Shown here piece by piece: positions 5,683-17,461 of a DNA stretch of 33,927 bases. This DNA is from a virus. Position 1 is the stretch's first letter. Every line of letters starts with the position of its first letter. Under the pieces are notes generated by a model. It saw only the letters and a list, made by a program, of their open reading frames with translations. It was not told the origin of the DNA and made no database searches. Where the stretch lies: the IMG/VR virus record IMGVR_UViG_3300020055_001573, positions 1 to 33,927 of that record; one strand, 5' to 3'. Position numbers and translations under genes: made by a program.

Positions 5683-5690
5683 TATTTATG
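5683..5690 (-). promoter_or_regulatory. Late promoter CATAAATA
   Basis: CATAAATA, 23 bases before the ATG at 5659, overlapping the stop codon of the bilin reductase gene. It would start late transcription of the nuclease-like virion protein. Confidence 0.55.
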
Positions 5691-6375
5691 CGATCTTTGG
5701 AAACAACATATCTCTACAGAATATTTCTACATCTTCTTCAGGTAAGCCCAACGACTTCATTACGGCGGGTGTATGAGGGTTTTGCTGCTGATTATGACAA
5801 TAATAATCTTGTGCAGCTTGCACTAAATTTTTGTCCCCATAACCATTAAATTGCGGAACTTCTTCAAACCAAGCACGTAGATTAGACAAAGCAATATCTA
5901 TAATAGGTCCTGCTTCATCTTCTTTGACATTGCCGGCGGCAAGCATTTTATCTGTAAAAATGTTTTGTGCCCATTCTGGTAGTTCACGTTGTTTCTTAGG
6001 AATGAAGTCTTCTACACTTTCTTTATATCCATCGATCATTGGATGGTCGAAAGTAGCACTTGGTGAAAAGTCGTGAAAGGCTCCTGTCATTTTGTTTTTG
6101 CCTGCAATAACATCAAAGCCGTATATAGGCGCATCGTTGTGTAGTACAGGAAAACAACATACGTGCATCATCCACAGGCCTTTAGTCTCACGAGCATCTA
6201 CAACATCAATATGAGCACGGCGAACGCTATCATTACTCCATACCCTATTAACCCAACCGTTATCTGGTTGATTGAATTCTGAAAGTCCTGGCTCTTCAAT
6301 TTCTTTTGCATATTCATCAAAAATGTCAAGTATTTCCTCCTTACAATCTATTAGTTTATTCCATATTGCACTCAT
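5686..6375 (-). CDS. Ferredoxin-dependent bilin reductase (PcyA/PebS/PcyX family)
   Basis: 229 residues, the usual size for phage bilin reductases (HY2 family), which reduce biliverdin with electrons from ferredoxin. Family marks are RRAHIDVVDA, GLWMMHVCCFP, DAPIYGFDVIAG, TGAFHDFSP and YYCHNQQQNP. H71 and D88 lie 17 residues apart, exactly as His88 and Asp105 of PcyA. At the C-terminal Asp of PcyA (220) and PebS (206), in an NDKT-like motif, this protein has Pro200 (QQQNPHT), so the second reduction may use another residue or the product may differ. It is last in the operon after heme oxygenase and a nitrilase-family gene. Whether it is PebS, PcyX or PcyA-like needs phylogeny. Confidence 0.88.
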   Translation of the reverse strand: MSAIWNKLIDCKEEILDIFDEYAKEIEEPGLSEFNQPDNGWVNRVWSNDSVRRAHIDVVDARETKGLWMMHVCCFPVLHNDAPIYGFDVIAGKNKMTGAFHDFSPSATFDHPMIDGYKESVEDFIPKKQRELPEWAQNIFTDKMLAAGNVKEDEAGPIIDIALSNLRAWFEEVPQFNGYGDKNLVQAAQDYYCHNQQQNPHTPAVMKSLGLPEEDVEIFCRDMLFPKIA

Positions 6376-6376
6376 T

Positions 6377-7171
6377 CTATACCTCTAAATCGTAGTAAAA
6401 ATAATTAAGTCCGTTATCGTTTGCAGTGACAAGCCATTCGCCTCTGTATATTATACCGCTGGTACTACTTGTCGTTCCTGTATACACTTTTCCATCTATT
6501 GTATTACAATTATCAACAGTAAGAATTGGTACACCGTATCGGGCGGCCATCCATAAGTGTATATCCCCGTATTCTTTAATTTTTTGATTGCTCTTCTCGT
6601 CGCCTGCTTTTTCAGCTCTAAATCCATTTGTACTATGACAAATAAAATCTACATTATTGTCTGCATAATATTGCAAATTTTCGTTAGCAATTACTTTTTG
6701 ATTTAGTTCACCCCATAAATCATTACAGACAAAACTACCCACACTAAAATCGTAACGACCATTTGCATTTATACCCTCAAAATTTGTAATTACAGAACTC
6801 TGTCCTGGATAACATTCATCTGCGGGTATAACCATTTGCTTACTATAAGTTCCTGCAGGCTGTCCTGCATCATTGTAATATTTTATTTGACTTTGTTTCA
6901 CTAAGCCAAAATCTACAGGTTGAATATAAAGTGTTGGCAAACCTATACTTACACCTGCAGATGTTGCTGCTCTTACAACATTACTAAGATGGAATTCAAT
7001 GTCTTCTTCAAATATATCTCGAAATGGTCTTAAATATCCACTAAGGGCGCCTTCAGGAAATAAAATAAAATCTACTTTATTGTCTGATGCCCATTCTAAA
7101 GCTGTTAGTATTTGACTTACATTTTTTTTTACATTATTTGTAACAGGAATTTGTGCGCCAGCTATTCTCAT
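6377..7171 (-). CDS. Nitrilase-superfamily C-N hydrolase
   Basis: 264 residues, the normal length for the carbon-nitrogen hydrolase superfamily, with the Glu-Lys-Cys triad readable: E40 in FPEGALSGY, K111 in YSKQMVIP and C149 in GSFVCNDLWG. These enzymes cleave amides or nitriles; NAD synthetase glutaminase domains and omega-amidases are relatives. The start overlaps the heme oxygenase stop by four bases (ATGA) and the stop is one base from the bilin reductase start region, so the three are translated as a unit. Substrate unknown. Placement between two bilin enzymes suggests a role in heme or bilin metabolism, but it may instead supply ammonia or salvage nitrogen. Confidence 0.85.
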   Translation of the reverse strand: MRIAGAQIPVTNNVKKNVSQILTALEWASDNKVDFILFPEGALSGYLRPFRDIFEEDIEFHLSNVVRAATSAGVSIGLPTLYIQPVDFGLVKQSQIKYYNDAGQPAGTYSKQMVIPADECYPGQSSVITNFEGINANGRYDFSVGSFVCNDLWGELNQKVIANENLQYYADNNVDFICHSTNGFRAEKAGDEKSNQKIKEYGDIHLWMAARYGVPILTVDNCNTIDGKVYTGTTSSTSGIIYRGEWLVTANDNGLNYFYYDLEV

Positions 7172-7698
7172 TTTACATCTATCATTTGTTGAAATAATTT
7201 TGTAGCAAAATCAAAACATATTTTTGCTTCATCTGCCATAGAATCGTTGCAACGAGATCTAATCGATTCTTTTAGACTATCGACATCTGTTTCAAATTGA
7301 TATAAACGACCTTCGCCAGGAACTTTTTTTGAAATCATTTGTCCGCCGCTTGCATCTCCCATATGCCTAACGTAAATATGGGCCATTAATTTATCTGGAT
7401 CGTCTTTTATAGACATAAGATGATCCATATAGTCTTTGACAACCGGAAGTAACGGAGGTTGATTCGGATTCGTTTCGCCCCATAGTTCTTGATAGTCTTG
7501 GTGTATTGCGGGTGCTCTTCTTGTGTCTAACAGATTGTGTAACATACTTAAAGTTTCTAATAAATTATACTGAGGGTGCAGATTAAAAAGAAATGTAGCA
7601 TATCTTTCATTTGATATGTCACCGCTCATTAGTTCTTTTACAAACTCTTGGCGTTCTGCATTTTTATGATGTTCCCAAGTTAATTCTTTTAGACTCAT
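7168..7698 (-). CDS. ho1: Heme oxygenase (biliverdin-forming)
   Basis: 176 residues, shorter than cyanobacterial Ho1 (about 240) and like phage heme oxygenases. H11 in the HKNAE segment is the expected proximal heme ligand (H-x-x-A-E). HIYVRHMGDASGGQMI contains the G-D-x-S-G-G helix that binds the oxygen side of heme. It would cleave heme to biliverdin, CO and iron, feeding the bilin reductase two genes downstream. The start overlaps clpS by four bases (ATGA) and the stop overlaps the hydrolase by four. Confidence 0.92.
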   Translation of the reverse strand: MSLKELTWEHHKNAERQEFVKELMSGDISNERYATFLFNLHPQYNLLETLSMLHNLLDTRRAPAIHQDYQELWGETNPNQPPLLPVVKDYMDHLMSIKDDPDKLMAHIYVRHMGDASGGQMISKKVPGEGRLYQFETDVDSLKESIRSRCNDSMADEAKICFDFATKLFQQMIDVK

Positions 7699-8006
7699 TC
7701 TTCTTCTACTCTTACCTGAAGTGGAAATCCGTGTGATCTACTTGCATTAGTAGCTTCTAAGGATTTAGTTTCTGCTATTTCGTACTTATACGTGCCTACG
7801 ATGGCTGAACCTTCATTATGAATTTGCATACATAAATTTTCTGCACCTGATTGGCTATGCTTAAAGATTTCCTGTAAAACACCAATTACCCATTCCATTG
7901 GTGTAGCATCGTCATTGAGCATAATAACATTATATAGTGAAGGCTCTTTAATTTCTTTTTTGATTTTTTCGTCAATAATGACATCTTGTGTAGTATTAGT
8001 ATTCAT
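7695..8006 (-). CDS. clpS: ClpS adaptor of the ClpAP protease
   Basis: 103 residues, close to bacterial ClpS (about 106). Family blocks are present in order: a flexible acidic N-terminus, YNVIMLNDDATPMEWVIGVL, IFKHSQSGAENLCMQIHNEG, VGTYKYEIAETKS and GFPLQVRVEE. The NDD-TPMEW loop and the helix after it form the N-degron pocket in known ClpS proteins. Phage ClpS could redirect host ClpAP toward or away from N-end-rule substrates. AAGGAG precedes the ATG, and a strong stem-loop at 8025-8046 lies in the leader between hsp20 and this gene. Confidence 0.93.
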   Translation of the reverse strand: MNTNTTQDVIIDEKIKKEIKEPSLYNVIMLNDDATPMEWVIGVLQEIFKHSQSGAENLCMQIHNEGSAIVGTYKYEIAETKSLEATNASRSHGFPLQVRVEEE

Positions 8007-8024
8007 TTTATCTCCTTTAAAGAT

Positions 8025-8046
8025 GGGGGAGTATAAAAACTCCCCC
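8025..8046 (-). terminator. GC-rich stem-loop between hsp20 and clpS
   Basis: Perfect 8-bp stem GGGGGAGT with ACTCCCCC around a 6-base loop. The loop on the minus strand is TTTTAT and no U-run follows the stem, so it is more likely a partial terminator, processing site or 3' stabiliser of hsp20 mRNA than a full terminator. Confidence 0.6.
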
Positions 8047-8054
8047 TAGACAGA

Positions 8055-8516
8055 TTACTTGCTGTCTAATTCGCCTTCGATATAAGAATTATCTTGAATC
8101 TTAATTTTCTTAGGCTGTAGTTCTTCTGGAACTTCACGCTTCAAGTGGATGTTTAGCATACCTAATTCAAGATTTGCACAATGCACTTCTACGTGATCAG
8201 CAAGTGTAAACTCTCTACGGAAGTTGCGTCCGCCGATTCCTTTGTGTAGGTAGTTTACTGTTTCATCGCCTTTCGGAGATGTACCTTCTACTCTCAAAAT
8301 GTTACCATCTTTGGTTACATCTAAGTTATCCATACCAAAGCCTGCAACCGCAAGAGAGATCATATACTCGTCTTCGTTGATTTGTGCAATGTTGTATGGA
8401 GGGTAACCATTTGATGCGCTATTTGCAAAACGTGCTTCCATTTCATCAAATAGTCTATCAAAGCCAATAGTTGCTCTGTGAAAGTTAGGTAGGTCTAGAG
8501 TTGTTAGTCTTGTCAT
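8055..8516 (-). CDS. hsp20: Small heat-shock protein (Hsp20/IbpA family)
   Basis: 153 residues. The start TRLTTLDLPNFHRATIGFDR resembles IbpA. An alpha-crystallin domain covers about residues 40-135: YNIAQINEDEYMISLAVAGF, LDVTKDGNILRVEG, HKGIGGRNFRREFTLADHVE and ANLELGMLNIHLKREVPEE. The C-terminal PKKIKI is the I-x-I/V-type anchoring motif. It is an ATP-independent holdase that binds unfolding proteins; T4-like marine phages often carry one. It is first in the hsp20-clpS-ho1 operon, with AAGGAG seven bases from the ATG. Confidence 0.95.
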   Translation of the reverse strand: MTRLTTLDLPNFHRATIGFDRLFDEMEARFANSASNGYPPYNIAQINEDEYMISLAVAGFGMDNLDVTKDGNILRVEGTSPKGDETVNYLHKGIGGRNFRREFTLADHVEVHCANLELGMLNIHLKREVPEELQPKKIKIQDNSYIEGELDSK

Positions 8517-8550
8517 TTTGTTTCTCCTTTAATAAGCAAGATTAATGTAA

Positions 8551-8580
8551 GGACCCTTTCGGCGTCCAAGTTTATTTATC
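8551..8580 (-). promoter_or_regulatory. Late promoter GATAAATA plus 5' stem-loop
   Basis: GATAAATA at 8580-8573. Five bases later there is a hairpin GGAC...GTCC (8567-8551) with an inner GCC-GAAA-GG segment, i.e. a GNRA tetraloop. It would place the hsp20-clpS-ho1-hydrolase-bilin reductase operon under late control. Confidence 0.55.
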
Positions 8581-9721
8581 ATTTGCCAATCGTACTCGAT
8601 TCATAAATTGCATTATGAGTTTGAGTACAACGAACAAATGTTGTACACTTTGACAAGTGCTTCAATCGCACTGCCCCAGCATATGTGCAGGTGGATCTAA
8701 CACCCCCGAGGATCTCTTGTACAGTATCTGCTACGGATCCTTTGTAAGGTACTAGAACCGTCCTGCCTTCTGACGAGCGATAATCTTTCAACCCGCCAAA
8801 ATGCTTTTCGTTTGCGCTTTTACTACTCATACCGTAGAATTGCACAAACTTCTTTTCTTCATAAACGGACTCAAAGAATCCGTCATCTGTTTTAGTCACT
8901 TCATTAGTTTCGTAAGTCTTAGTGATTACTTCGCCGCCACCTTCATCGTGTCCGGCAAGCATACCACCAAGCATCACAAAGTCAGCACCTGCTGCAAATG
9001 CTTTTGCTACATCGCCTGGAGTTGTACAACCACCATCAGCGATAATATGCCCGCCAAGCCCGTGAGCAGCATCCGCACACTCAATGACTGCGGATAGTTG
9101 CGGATAACCAACACCAGTTTGTATACGTGTCGTACAGACCGACCCAGGGCCAATCCCAACTTTAATAATATCTGCTCCAGCAAGAATAAGTTCCTCCGTC
9201 ATTTCGCCTGTAACAACGTTACCTGCAATGATTACAATGTGTGGATAACGCTGTCTAAAATTGCGCACAAATTCAGCAAAACGTTCTGAATATCCGTTAG
9301 CAACATCAATGCAAACATACTTTAGATTACTGTCTGCTTGTTCATATACATCGCGGAACTTCATTTCGTCTTTGTCTGTAATACCAATGCTCATAGCAAC
9401 ATAGTTGGTACGATTGTAGTCGTCAGTATCAAAGAAGTTTACTAGTTCGTTTACACTATAAGTTTTAACTAGACAAGTAAAAATACCTTCTCTAGCAAGA
9501 CTGTCAGCCATTTCAAATGTGCCAACACCGTCCATATTACTTGCCATAATAGGAACTCCTCGCCAATGACGATGTTCTATATTATCTGGAAAGTCTGGTT
9601 CATAGTTACGGAATGTGTAACCACGTTCTAGATCAACTTCTTTGCGGCTGCCAAGTGTTGAACGCTTAGGACGAATCAAAACGTCCTTATAGTCTAGTTT
9701 TACATCTTCTTCGAGACGCAT
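8579..9721 (-). CDS. guaC: GMP reductase
   Basis: 380 residues and strikingly close to E. coli GuaC (347): [107 protein letters not shown]196 in GSVCTTR is the catalytic Cys. It reduces GMP to IMP with NADPH, moving guanine nucleotides toward adenine nucleotides, which suits a phage with AT-rich DNA. The extra length comes from insertions near residues 40-54 and 262-285. The start has GAGGA upstream. The end overlaps the late motif of the hsp20 operon. Confidence 0.95.
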
Positions 9722-15564: not shown

Positions 15565-15987
15565 CTAGGATAGGTTAGCTAAAAGCTCTTTTAGTTTTTT
15601 CTTAGACTTGCCTTTTACCTTAGCACCTGAGATATCGTTATCGCCATCACCTACAACTACAATGGCAATCATACCCATTGACTTGTGTGGTGTGCATTGA
15701 TACAAATAAACACCCGGTGTATCAAATGTGTAGGCATATTCTTTGCCTTGTTTTGATTTCTTTGGTGCTTCCCAACCATCTGGGCCCGCGATAAATTCTA
15801 CATTGTGACCTTTACTTTTTGGTAGCCAAGTAATGGTGTCACCTACATCAATACGTGCAATGTCTTCTGAATACACCATCTTAGCACCGTCGTCACGTTT
15901 GTTCAACATATCGATTGAGATATCTGCTGCCAACGCTCCTGTGGCCATTGCAAAAATTAGTCCTAGTGTAGTTAAAAAAATCCGCAT
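15565..15987 (-). CDS. Pseudoazurin (type 1 blue copper protein)
   Basis: 140 residues: a signal peptide (MRIFLTTLGLIFAMATGALA) and a cupredoxin domain. Copper ligands are H61 (GHNVEF), C98, H101 and M106 (YQCTPHKSMGM); the spacing 37-3-5 is that of pseudoazurins (38-3-5). ISIDMLNKRDDGAKMVY and the two C-terminal helices after VVVGDGD are also pseudoazurin traits and not plastocyanin. It carries single electrons in the periplasm, for example to nitrite or nitrous oxide reductase, cytochrome c peroxidase or oxidases. One base after the 72-residue gene. Cyanophages carry plastocyanin; a proteobacterial pseudoazurin points to a proteobacterial host. Confidence 0.92.
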   Translation of the reverse strand: MRIFLTTLGLIFAMATGALAADISIDMLNKRDDGAKMVYSEDIARIDVGDTITWLPKSKGHNVEFIAGPDGWEAPKKSKQGKEYAYTFDTPGVYLYQCTPHKSMGMIAIVVVGDGDNDISGAKVKGKSKKKLKELLANLS

Positions 15988-16694: not shown

Positions 16695-16977
16695 AAAGGT
16701 GCGCTAAAATGTAGCAGGCCCGTTCTGTTGCCCGGTGGAGCCTATACCGCGAACTTGCCCTTAGGCTGCTTCTAAGACTTCTGCGTCAAAGAAAAGTTCA
16801 GGTTTAAAATTGCTGTTTGCAATTATTGTGTTTGCTGATTTACGGTCTCGCCTACCGGTAACTCCACGTTCTCTATTACGCCTGTCGATTCCCGGAACAC
16901 CCCCATAGAAGTTTATTGGTGGAGGTGGGGAGATTCGAACTCCCGTCCAGTTCGTCGTTGATTGGCTTCAACGTTAC
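16695..16977 (-). ncRNA. ssrA: Circularly permuted two-piece tmRNA
   Basis: On the minus strand the acceptor piece comes first: T arm GGGAG-TTCGAAT-CTCCC, acceptor strand CACCTCC, then ACCA with encoded CCA ending at 16917. A 12-base spacer (16916-16905) follows. Then the coding piece starts GGGGGTG (16904-16898), which pairs fully with CACCTCC, including a G3-U70 wobble, the identity element for alanine charging. The D-loop-like TTCCGGGAATCGACAGGC follows. The resume codon GCA opens the tag ANSNFKPELFFDAEVLEAA and stops at TAA. Outer ends are estimated. Circular permutation is known from alphaproteobacteria and marine picocyanobacteria. It would rescue stalled ribosomes and tag nascent proteins. 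Confidence 0.92.
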
Positions 16978-16981
16978 AGTT

Positions 16982-17013
16982 TATTTATACTACCACTTGG
17001 CTACACTTGTCAA
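16982..17013 (-). promoter_or_regulatory. tmRNA promoter: sigma70 and late motif overlapping
   Basis: TTGACA at 17013-17008, 18-base spacer, TATAAA at 16989-16984. The same bases form an exact T4 late motif TATAAATA (16989-16982), immediately after the TAG of the preceding gene. Either reading starts RNA near 16977. Confidence 0.65.
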
Positions 17014-17202
17014 CCGTTTTTGTGAACGGACAGCATCCATAATACGAAGTATTTGTTTCTTTTTATTACCAGGACGGTCATAGTGATTTTTTGCAGCCCA
17101 GGTTTGATCTGCTTCTAGTTGTTGAGCAAACTTTTCACCTAATATTTTTTCTAAGTAGCACAAATCATCAGTGCTGAGTTCATCAAATTTTTTAGATACC
17201 AT
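16990..17202 (-). CDS. Small charged protein, unknown
   Basis: 70 residues from ATG 17202, overlapping the end of the preceding gene by 11 bases; a longer frame to 17304 would lie wholly within that gene. KKFDELSTDDLCYLEKILGE, FAQQLEADQTWAAKNHYDRP and KKKQILRIMDAVRSQKRLTS suggest a helical protein with a basic end. GGAAAG lies upstream. The tmRNA promoter overlaps its 3' end. Function unknown. Confidence 0.6.
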   Translation of the reverse strand: MVSKKFDELSTDDLCYLEKILGEKFAQQLEADQTWAAKNHYDRPGNKKKQILRIMDAVRSQKRLTSVAKW

Positions 17203-17461
17203 TTTGTTTTTCTTTCCAGGCTTGTTCGAACTGTTCTGCATAGTCATACAAAGGTGCACCATTGGCACCATCATACCAAAGGCGTTTGAAATATCCTTCT
17301 GCACTTTGGACTACTGTTTCAGGAGTGGCGTCGAGATGGCCTTTAACCATATAAAATAATCTGTATTCTTCTTTAAGATCATTTCGAAGCATAACGTATT
17401 TACATTCCTTGTAAATGTAGGCGCTAACATCAATCCTTTTTTGACTTTTTCTTTGTACCAT
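17192..17461 (-). CDS. Small conserved-looking protein, unknown
   Basis: 89 residues if started at ATG 17461; this overlaps the previous gene by 32 bases and lacks a good Shine-Dalgarno, so the real start may be internal (ATG 17392). Sequence AYIYKECKYVMLRNDLKEEY, FYMVKGHLDATPETVVQSAE, GYFKRLWYDGANGAPLYDYA. It is aromatic and charged, with no membrane segment or known motif. Confidence 0.6.
   Translation of the reverse strand: MVQRKSQKRIDVSAYIYKECKYVMLRNDLKEEYRLFYMVKGHLDATPETVVQSAEGYFKRLWYDGANGAPLYDYAEQFEQAWKEKQNGI

Follow-up and report, generated by a model that had tools for sequence, protein, structure and literature searches.

Why should a bacteriophage carry its own transfer-messenger RNA (tmRNA), and what becomes of proteins that receive a tag with an unfamiliar ending? 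Both questions are raised by a gene in the IMG/VR virus record IMGVR_UViG_3300020055_001573, analysed here over positions 1 to 33,927 (the whole 33,927-nucleotide stretch, hereafter the window). The minus strand holds a circularly permuted, two-piece tmRNA gene whose 19-codon tag, ANSNFKPELFFDAEVLEAA, ends in -EVLEAA, with Glu at position -3. In describing the phage Melnitz, its authors speculated that a phage tmRNA serves either upkeep of the hijacked translation machinery or tagging of host proteins for recycling (PMC9004378). A tag that departs from the host's at a position contacted by ClpX, but is maintained among divergent phages, opens to experiment the choice between ribosome rescue only and directed degradation.

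Two-piece tmRNAs are established in phages: 53 were reported for a set of 2021 isolate genomes, and 50 of these came from marine or aquatic samples (PMC9004378); phage sequences in the current tmRNA database number 79 (PMC11915505). Known carriers include the pelagiphage Mosig EXVC030M (MT647606) and the methylophage Melnitz (PMC9004378). Public viral contigs hold dozens more, and long tags also occur in other phage tmRNAs, so a phage-encoded two-piece tmRNA, as recognized in the sequence-only reading of this DNA, is not in itself a novelty. The gene is of a known kind; the tag class is new with respect to an open-access subset of the literature, searched with narrow terms, and an -EAA ending may have been listed before.

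A two-piece tmRNA gene and its promoter

Positions 16977-16761 of the minus strand match the full Rfam model RF04321 (tmRNA_permuted, 1-213) at 96.3 bits, against a cut-off of 47 (E 1e-17). The model RF01849 (alpha_tmRNA) matches 17016-16713 on the same strand (63.6 bits; cut-off 50), and is the sole clade-specific Rfam model to exceed its cut-off at the gene; the beta_tmRNA model reached 60.6 bits, under its own cut-off of 84. The sequence-only reading had proposed a phage-encoded, circularly permuted tmRNA of alphaproteobacterial or marine cyanobacterial origin. Covariance models confirm the permutation, and the viral record together with syntenic phage relatives confirms the phage setting; an alphaproteobacterial type is supported by the clade-specific models, whereas a cyanobacterial origin is not favoured. 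ARAGORN, which that reading had named beside the Rfam models, called no tmRNA at the gene matched by RF04321.

Read along the strand, the acceptor piece comes first, then a short spacer, then the coding piece (Table 1). The encoded CCA, the 12-base spacer, the seven-base pairing, and the 19-codon tag are all as had been described. The acceptor stem, GGGGGTG/CACCTCC, includes G3-U70, the identity element for alanine. The gene resembles the RF01849 and RF04321 families in passing both cut-offs, in its encoded CCA and G3-U70, and in a conserved GGCAACAGAA near the 3' end. It differs from them in its spacer of 12 nucleotides, its tag of 19 codons ending EAA, and its T loop: the window has an ordinary TTCGAAT, whereas the alpha consensus and most relatives, L157 and L351 included, have the GGCGGTAC type.

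Eighty related loci were gathered through an 89-residue protein encoded upstream of the tmRNA, and many have a permuted tmRNA at the same place. Forty-four distinct copies with this 5' end were chosen for their seven acceptor pairs. Seven loci did not fit; at least three of these end at a contig end (L164, L211, L217), and two more (L241 and its second extract, L254) represent a second, weaker copy. The latter lies in phage contig G048, which has two permuted tmRNA matches less than 1 kb apart, at 120.8 and 30.7 bits. Eight sister phages are without the tmRNA at this place (L130, L131, L133, L136, L137, L139, L140, and L141); in L130 and L131, another open reading frame (ORF) with its own TTGACA start stands in its place.

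Within the 44 copies, all of which have the seven-pair stem by choice and all of which have G3-U70, the pairs themselves vary. All four Watson-Crick combinations are seen at pair 5-68 (GC 22, CG 14, TA 5, AT 3) and three at pair 6-67 (CG 24, TA 15, AT 5). The T stem, which was not selected for, forms five of five pairs in 41 of 41 copies, with several pair types. The window gene itself recurs, identical, in three further assemblies (four in all). Covarying stems and a shared promoter in 44 distinct copies are comparative evidence of selection on phage two-piece tmRNAs; by this evidence, the tmRNA is a phage gene under selection.

The promoter is equally regular. Either TATAAATA or TTAAATA ends 3-4 nucleotides upstream of the acceptor piece in every one of the 44 copies, and a perfect TTGACA precedes TATAAAT by 16-18 nucleotides in 39 of the 41 unique upstream regions from phages (31 at 17 nucleotides) but in none of 28 bacterial tmRNA upstream regions. 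A T4 late promoter was the first reading of the box, dropped after TTGACA was seen at this distance in the 39 regions. A sigma-70-type promoter is likelier; as the -10 box fits a T4-type late promoter too, expression may be early, late, or both. The usual spacing of sigma-70 promoters would place the transcription start at about 16977, the predicted 5' end, so that little 5' trimming would be needed. In the window as a whole, TATAAATA is not enriched (4 found, 3.67 expected); two other sites (2714 and 3743) directly precede gene starts, without TTGACA. For the Melnitz tmRNA, an early promoter has been described immediately upstream (PMC9004378).

Table 1. Features of the tmRNA locus and associated genes in the window
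Feature	Position	Strand	Basis or remark
Upstream ORF, 104 residues; its end overlaps the promoter	16990..17304	(-)	Syntenic with tmRNA in relatives
tmRNA promoter -35 box TTGACA, overlapping the end of the upstream ORF	17008..17013	(-)	Conservation in phage upstream regions
-10 box TATAAATA; also fits T4-type late promoter box	16982..16989	(-)	TATAAATA or TTAAATA in 44/44 distinct copies
Acceptor piece, transcribed first; ends in encoded CCA (16919-16917)	16917..16977	(-)	Rfam, strand reading, and relatives
T arm GGGAG-TTCGAAT-CTCCC	16944-16928	(-)	Within acceptor piece
3' acceptor strand CACCTCC	16927-16921	(-)	Within acceptor piece
12-nucleotide spacer ATAAACTTCTAT between the pieces	16905..16916	(-)	Strand reading; identical in L013
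Coding piece; 5' acceptor strand GGGGGTG first	16712..16904	(-)	3' end approximate, from alpha_tmRNA model
Tag reading frame ANSNFKPELFFDAEVLEAA + TAA	16761..16820	(-)	Resume codon GCA 16820; tag codons 16820-16764; stop 16763-16761
Downstream ORF, 76 residues	15989..16219	(-)	Syntenic with tmRNA in relatives
ClpS, Clp protease adaptor	7695..8006	(-)	Co-carried with tmRNA in phage group; link not proven

A tag ending shared by distant phages

A canonical degron tag has a C-terminal Ala-Ala preceded by a hydrophobic or small residue. The window tag has the Ala-Ala, but its -3 residue is Glu. Other surveyed tags from phage permuted tmRNAs end in LAA, VAA, MAA, IAA, or AAA, with one ANA as the only exception besides the window's EAA. 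Host-type tags of alphaproteobacteria, read from most of the 36 genomes that gave a match, are short, and their Ala-Ala follows L, V, I, M, or A. The LEAA ending, already singled out as odd in the sequence-only reading, is indeed unusual, and it is also conserved in other phages. That reading had further set 19 residues against the 11 of the E. coli tag; the window tag is indeed nearly double the usual length, although the like-for-like figures are 20 and 11 because the E. coli count includes the non-encoded first alanine.

Tag searches made after the survey found the EAA ending in the -EVLEAA group alone. A degenerate search recovered L351 and L352, whose tag is identical to that of the window; all four differences in the tag are synonymous, an outcome with a chance of about 0.0016 if some 20% of changes are silent. 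The tmRNAs of these two loci have another T arm and a far longer spacer than the window gene. A looser search added L354, L356, and L359, with the tag ANANFKPELFFDFEVLEAA; L355, with one extra in-frame codon (ANANFKPELFFDFDEVLEAA); and L353, which the contig end truncates. The tags of the first four all end in -EVLEAA. The phages represented by L354, L356, and L359 keep the gene order of the window, with NrdA only about 55% identical. In the last six tag codons the sole changes are GAA/GAG and TTA/CTA, both silent.

Because -EVLEAA recurs in distinct phage tmRNAs, with only silent changes at the tag end and with other -3 residues elsewhere, it represents a conserved phage tag class and not decay. 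Sequencing error or decay as the source of the tag was ruled out, the tag being identical in four assemblies and its end changing only synonymously. An ending common to distant viruses suggests that phages have their own version of the protein-disposal label. Most phages of the group retain -ALAA. The closest long tag with the FFD motif, that of L233 and L237 (ANKNFAPEVFFDEVALAA), belongs to a tmRNA with a near-identical 5' part at the same place in the genome, but retains the canonical ALAA end. Very long tags, of 24-29 residues, occur in other phage tmRNAs (L049, L097, L060, L037, L026, and L045; for example, ADFKANGNVTFVNFGAKLPTNEEFALAA).

Like the window gene, the Mosig and Melnitz tmRNAs are phage-encoded, permuted, of alphaproteobacterial type, and carried by T4-like marine myophages; Mosig also has the pair of heme oxygenase and bilin reductase genes found in the window. 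However, the Mosig tag (GEDNFALAA, by our own reading) is short with the usual end, and Mosig is without ClpS. A glutamine riboswitch is predicted in the Melnitz ssrA gene; the Rfam scan of the window gave none above its cut-off. Chromosomal tmRNAs of Rhodobacteraceae are likewise two-piece, with tags that start AN-N (ANDNRAPVALAA, ANNNRAPMAMAA), but the tags are short with a hydrophobic -3 residue, and the genes are without the TTGACA/TATAAAT promoter at the window distance.

Parts of the window gene are shared with different relatives. The 5' part and first pseudoknot region are common to L157 and the tag to L351, and the exact spacer recurs in L013, which likewise has an ordinary TTCGA-type T loop. 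In each copy the two acceptor strands match each other. This mosaic is most simply read as recombination among phage tmRNAs. An exact 30-nucleotide motif from the 5' part had no match in bacterial genomes, and megablast of the region had none among isolated phages.

In ten other loci (L224, L226, L227, L229, L230, L231, L232, L236, L238, and L192) the spacer between acceptor and coding pieces contains a small protein gene, with GAGGAT before its ATG (MNWDWHWISWFKGTPFQWGEF...GPLLIRVF). L229 differs from L224 by three silent codons only, and L192 by five silent and five changed codons. Different small ORFs, some membrane-like, lie in the spacers of L196, L166, L242, and L354. A literature search with narrow terms, limited to open-access papers, found no report of ORFs inside the spacers of two-piece tmRNAs; as a sign of absence this is weak.

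Ribosome rescue, degradation, and rival explanations

The gene very probably encodes a working, alphaproteobacterial-type two-piece tmRNA that places ribosome recycling under phage control. The TTGACA/TATAAAT promoter would yield one transcript starting at the acceptor piece, from which host tRNA-processing enzymes would excise the 12-nucleotide spacer, leaving two RNAs joined by the acceptor stem and helix 2. Such two-piece processing of tmRNA is known in Caulobacter. Host AlaRS could charge the product through G3-U70. Host SmpB presumably would load it on stalled ribosomes, since none of 17 relative phage contigs, many of which are fragments, yielded an SmpB. The ribosome would then resume at GCA (16820), append Ala plus ANSNFKPELFFDAEVLEAA, and be freed, for a net effect of phage-controlled ribosome recycling during infection.

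The fate of the tagged product is less certain. Recognition by ClpXP depends above all on the terminal Ala-Ala, and mutation of the antepenultimate Leu raises the Michaelis constant (KM) modestly (PMC7652416). With Ala-Ala retained, Glu at -3 probably weakens ClpXP recognition rather than abolishing it: products should still be directed to ClpXP at lowered affinity, and possibly shift to another protease.

ClpS bears on this question. In a set of 50 related contigs, ClpS occurs in 21, each of which also has the tmRNA, and is absent from all 19 that lack tmRNA; for the 35 contigs not picked by tmRNA, ClpS is present in 11 of 16 with tmRNA and in 0 of 19 without. A functional link between the two was considered but is not proven: the Hsp20 pattern is identical, and only two independent pairs lie on supported branches. 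ClpS and tmRNA are co-carried, an association only.

Several points weigh against a selected and functional gene. In some sister phages the locus is without a tmRNA although the upstream DNA is 92% identical, so the gene is dispensable. The folding energy of the precursor (z -1.79) is unremarkable and uninformative. Given the mosaic, recent exchange, and not long selection, may account for some of the similarity among tags. Dispensability and the unusual tag end would suit a neutral relic, a captured bacterial tmRNA gene in decay whose odd tag end is damage. This is very improbable, being already contradicted by compensatory stem changes, invariant G3-U70, the conserved promoter, silent-only change at the tag end, and four identical assemblies. 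A chance structure or assembly artefact, for which the silence of ARAGORN might speak, has next to no probability; the Rfam E-value and the many syntenic relatives refute it. A decoy, in which the phage RNA inhibits host tmRNA by competing with it, has a reported precedent in the tmRNA of phage DS6A (PMC11915505). That tmRNA lacks a coding sequence, whereas the tag frame here is intact and conserved through synonymous change, and a decoy is accordingly rated very unlikely, if marginally less so than a relic.

Of greater weight, although still doubtful, is deliberate reprogramming of the degron, by which -EVLEAA would allow ribosomes to be rescued while the proteins escape ClpXP or pass to another protease or adaptor, with phage ClpS diverting ClpAP. 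Glu at -3 is kept in several distinct phage tmRNAs, whereas L, V, I, M, or A fills that position in the remaining phage tags of the survey (one N) and in the host tags read; the KM effect agrees in direction; and ClpS lowers the affinity of ClpAP for ssrA-tagged proteins (PMC8138137), every ClpS-positive contig also carrying tmRNA. Nevertheless, that KM effect is modest with Ala-Ala retained (PMC7652416), and most phages of the group keep -ALAA. Moreover, ClpS and Hsp20 travel as a block, the independent-pair test on the tree is not significant, and tmRNA-positive phages outside the group, large contigs included, mostly lack ClpS. A working tmRNA for ribosome recycling is the reading preferred here. 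The fuller proposal is offered tentatively: a distinct tag class of 19-20 encoded residues (...FKPELFFD-x-EVLEAA) in phages that infect marine alphaproteobacteria, selected and swapped as a module between phage tmRNAs, might rescue ribosomes while re-routing or slowing degradation, with a phage ClpS acting to shift the Clp proteases of the host.

Neighbouring genes and the probable host

The block at 5686-9721 encodes ClpS, Hsp20, heme oxygenase, bilin reductase, and an IMPDH/GMP reductase homologue. The bilin reductase is 53% identical to that of pelagiphage Mosig. These five genes are also clustered in L405, a divergent relative whose tag is of the EVLEAA class. The group falls with the T4-like myophages, as judged from Gp23 capsid genes present in three relatives.

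An alphaproteobacterial host is likely, perhaps of the Rhodobacteraceae. Some tags of the group (ANDNRAPEMALAA) resemble Rhodobacteraceae tags such as ANDNRAPVALAA. A pseudoazurin/plastocyanin-like copper protein with a signal peptide, encoded at 15565-15987, is 66-69% identical to Rhodobacteraceae proteins, which are its nearest relatives among named bacteria, bar one bin that looks mislabelled. Bins labelled Muricauda and Rhodobacteraceae (L391-L395; G096, G101) contain tmRNAs with phage-type tags, three with the phage promoter box; in G101, the phage-type tmRNA is beside a host-type one. Loci L391-L395 probably are phage contigs inside bins, and so offer a hint of the host.

Elsewhere in the window, positions 1456-2685 encode a secreted-looking protein of 409 residues, most of it repeats rich in Thr and Asn; a TATAAATA box lies immediately upstream.
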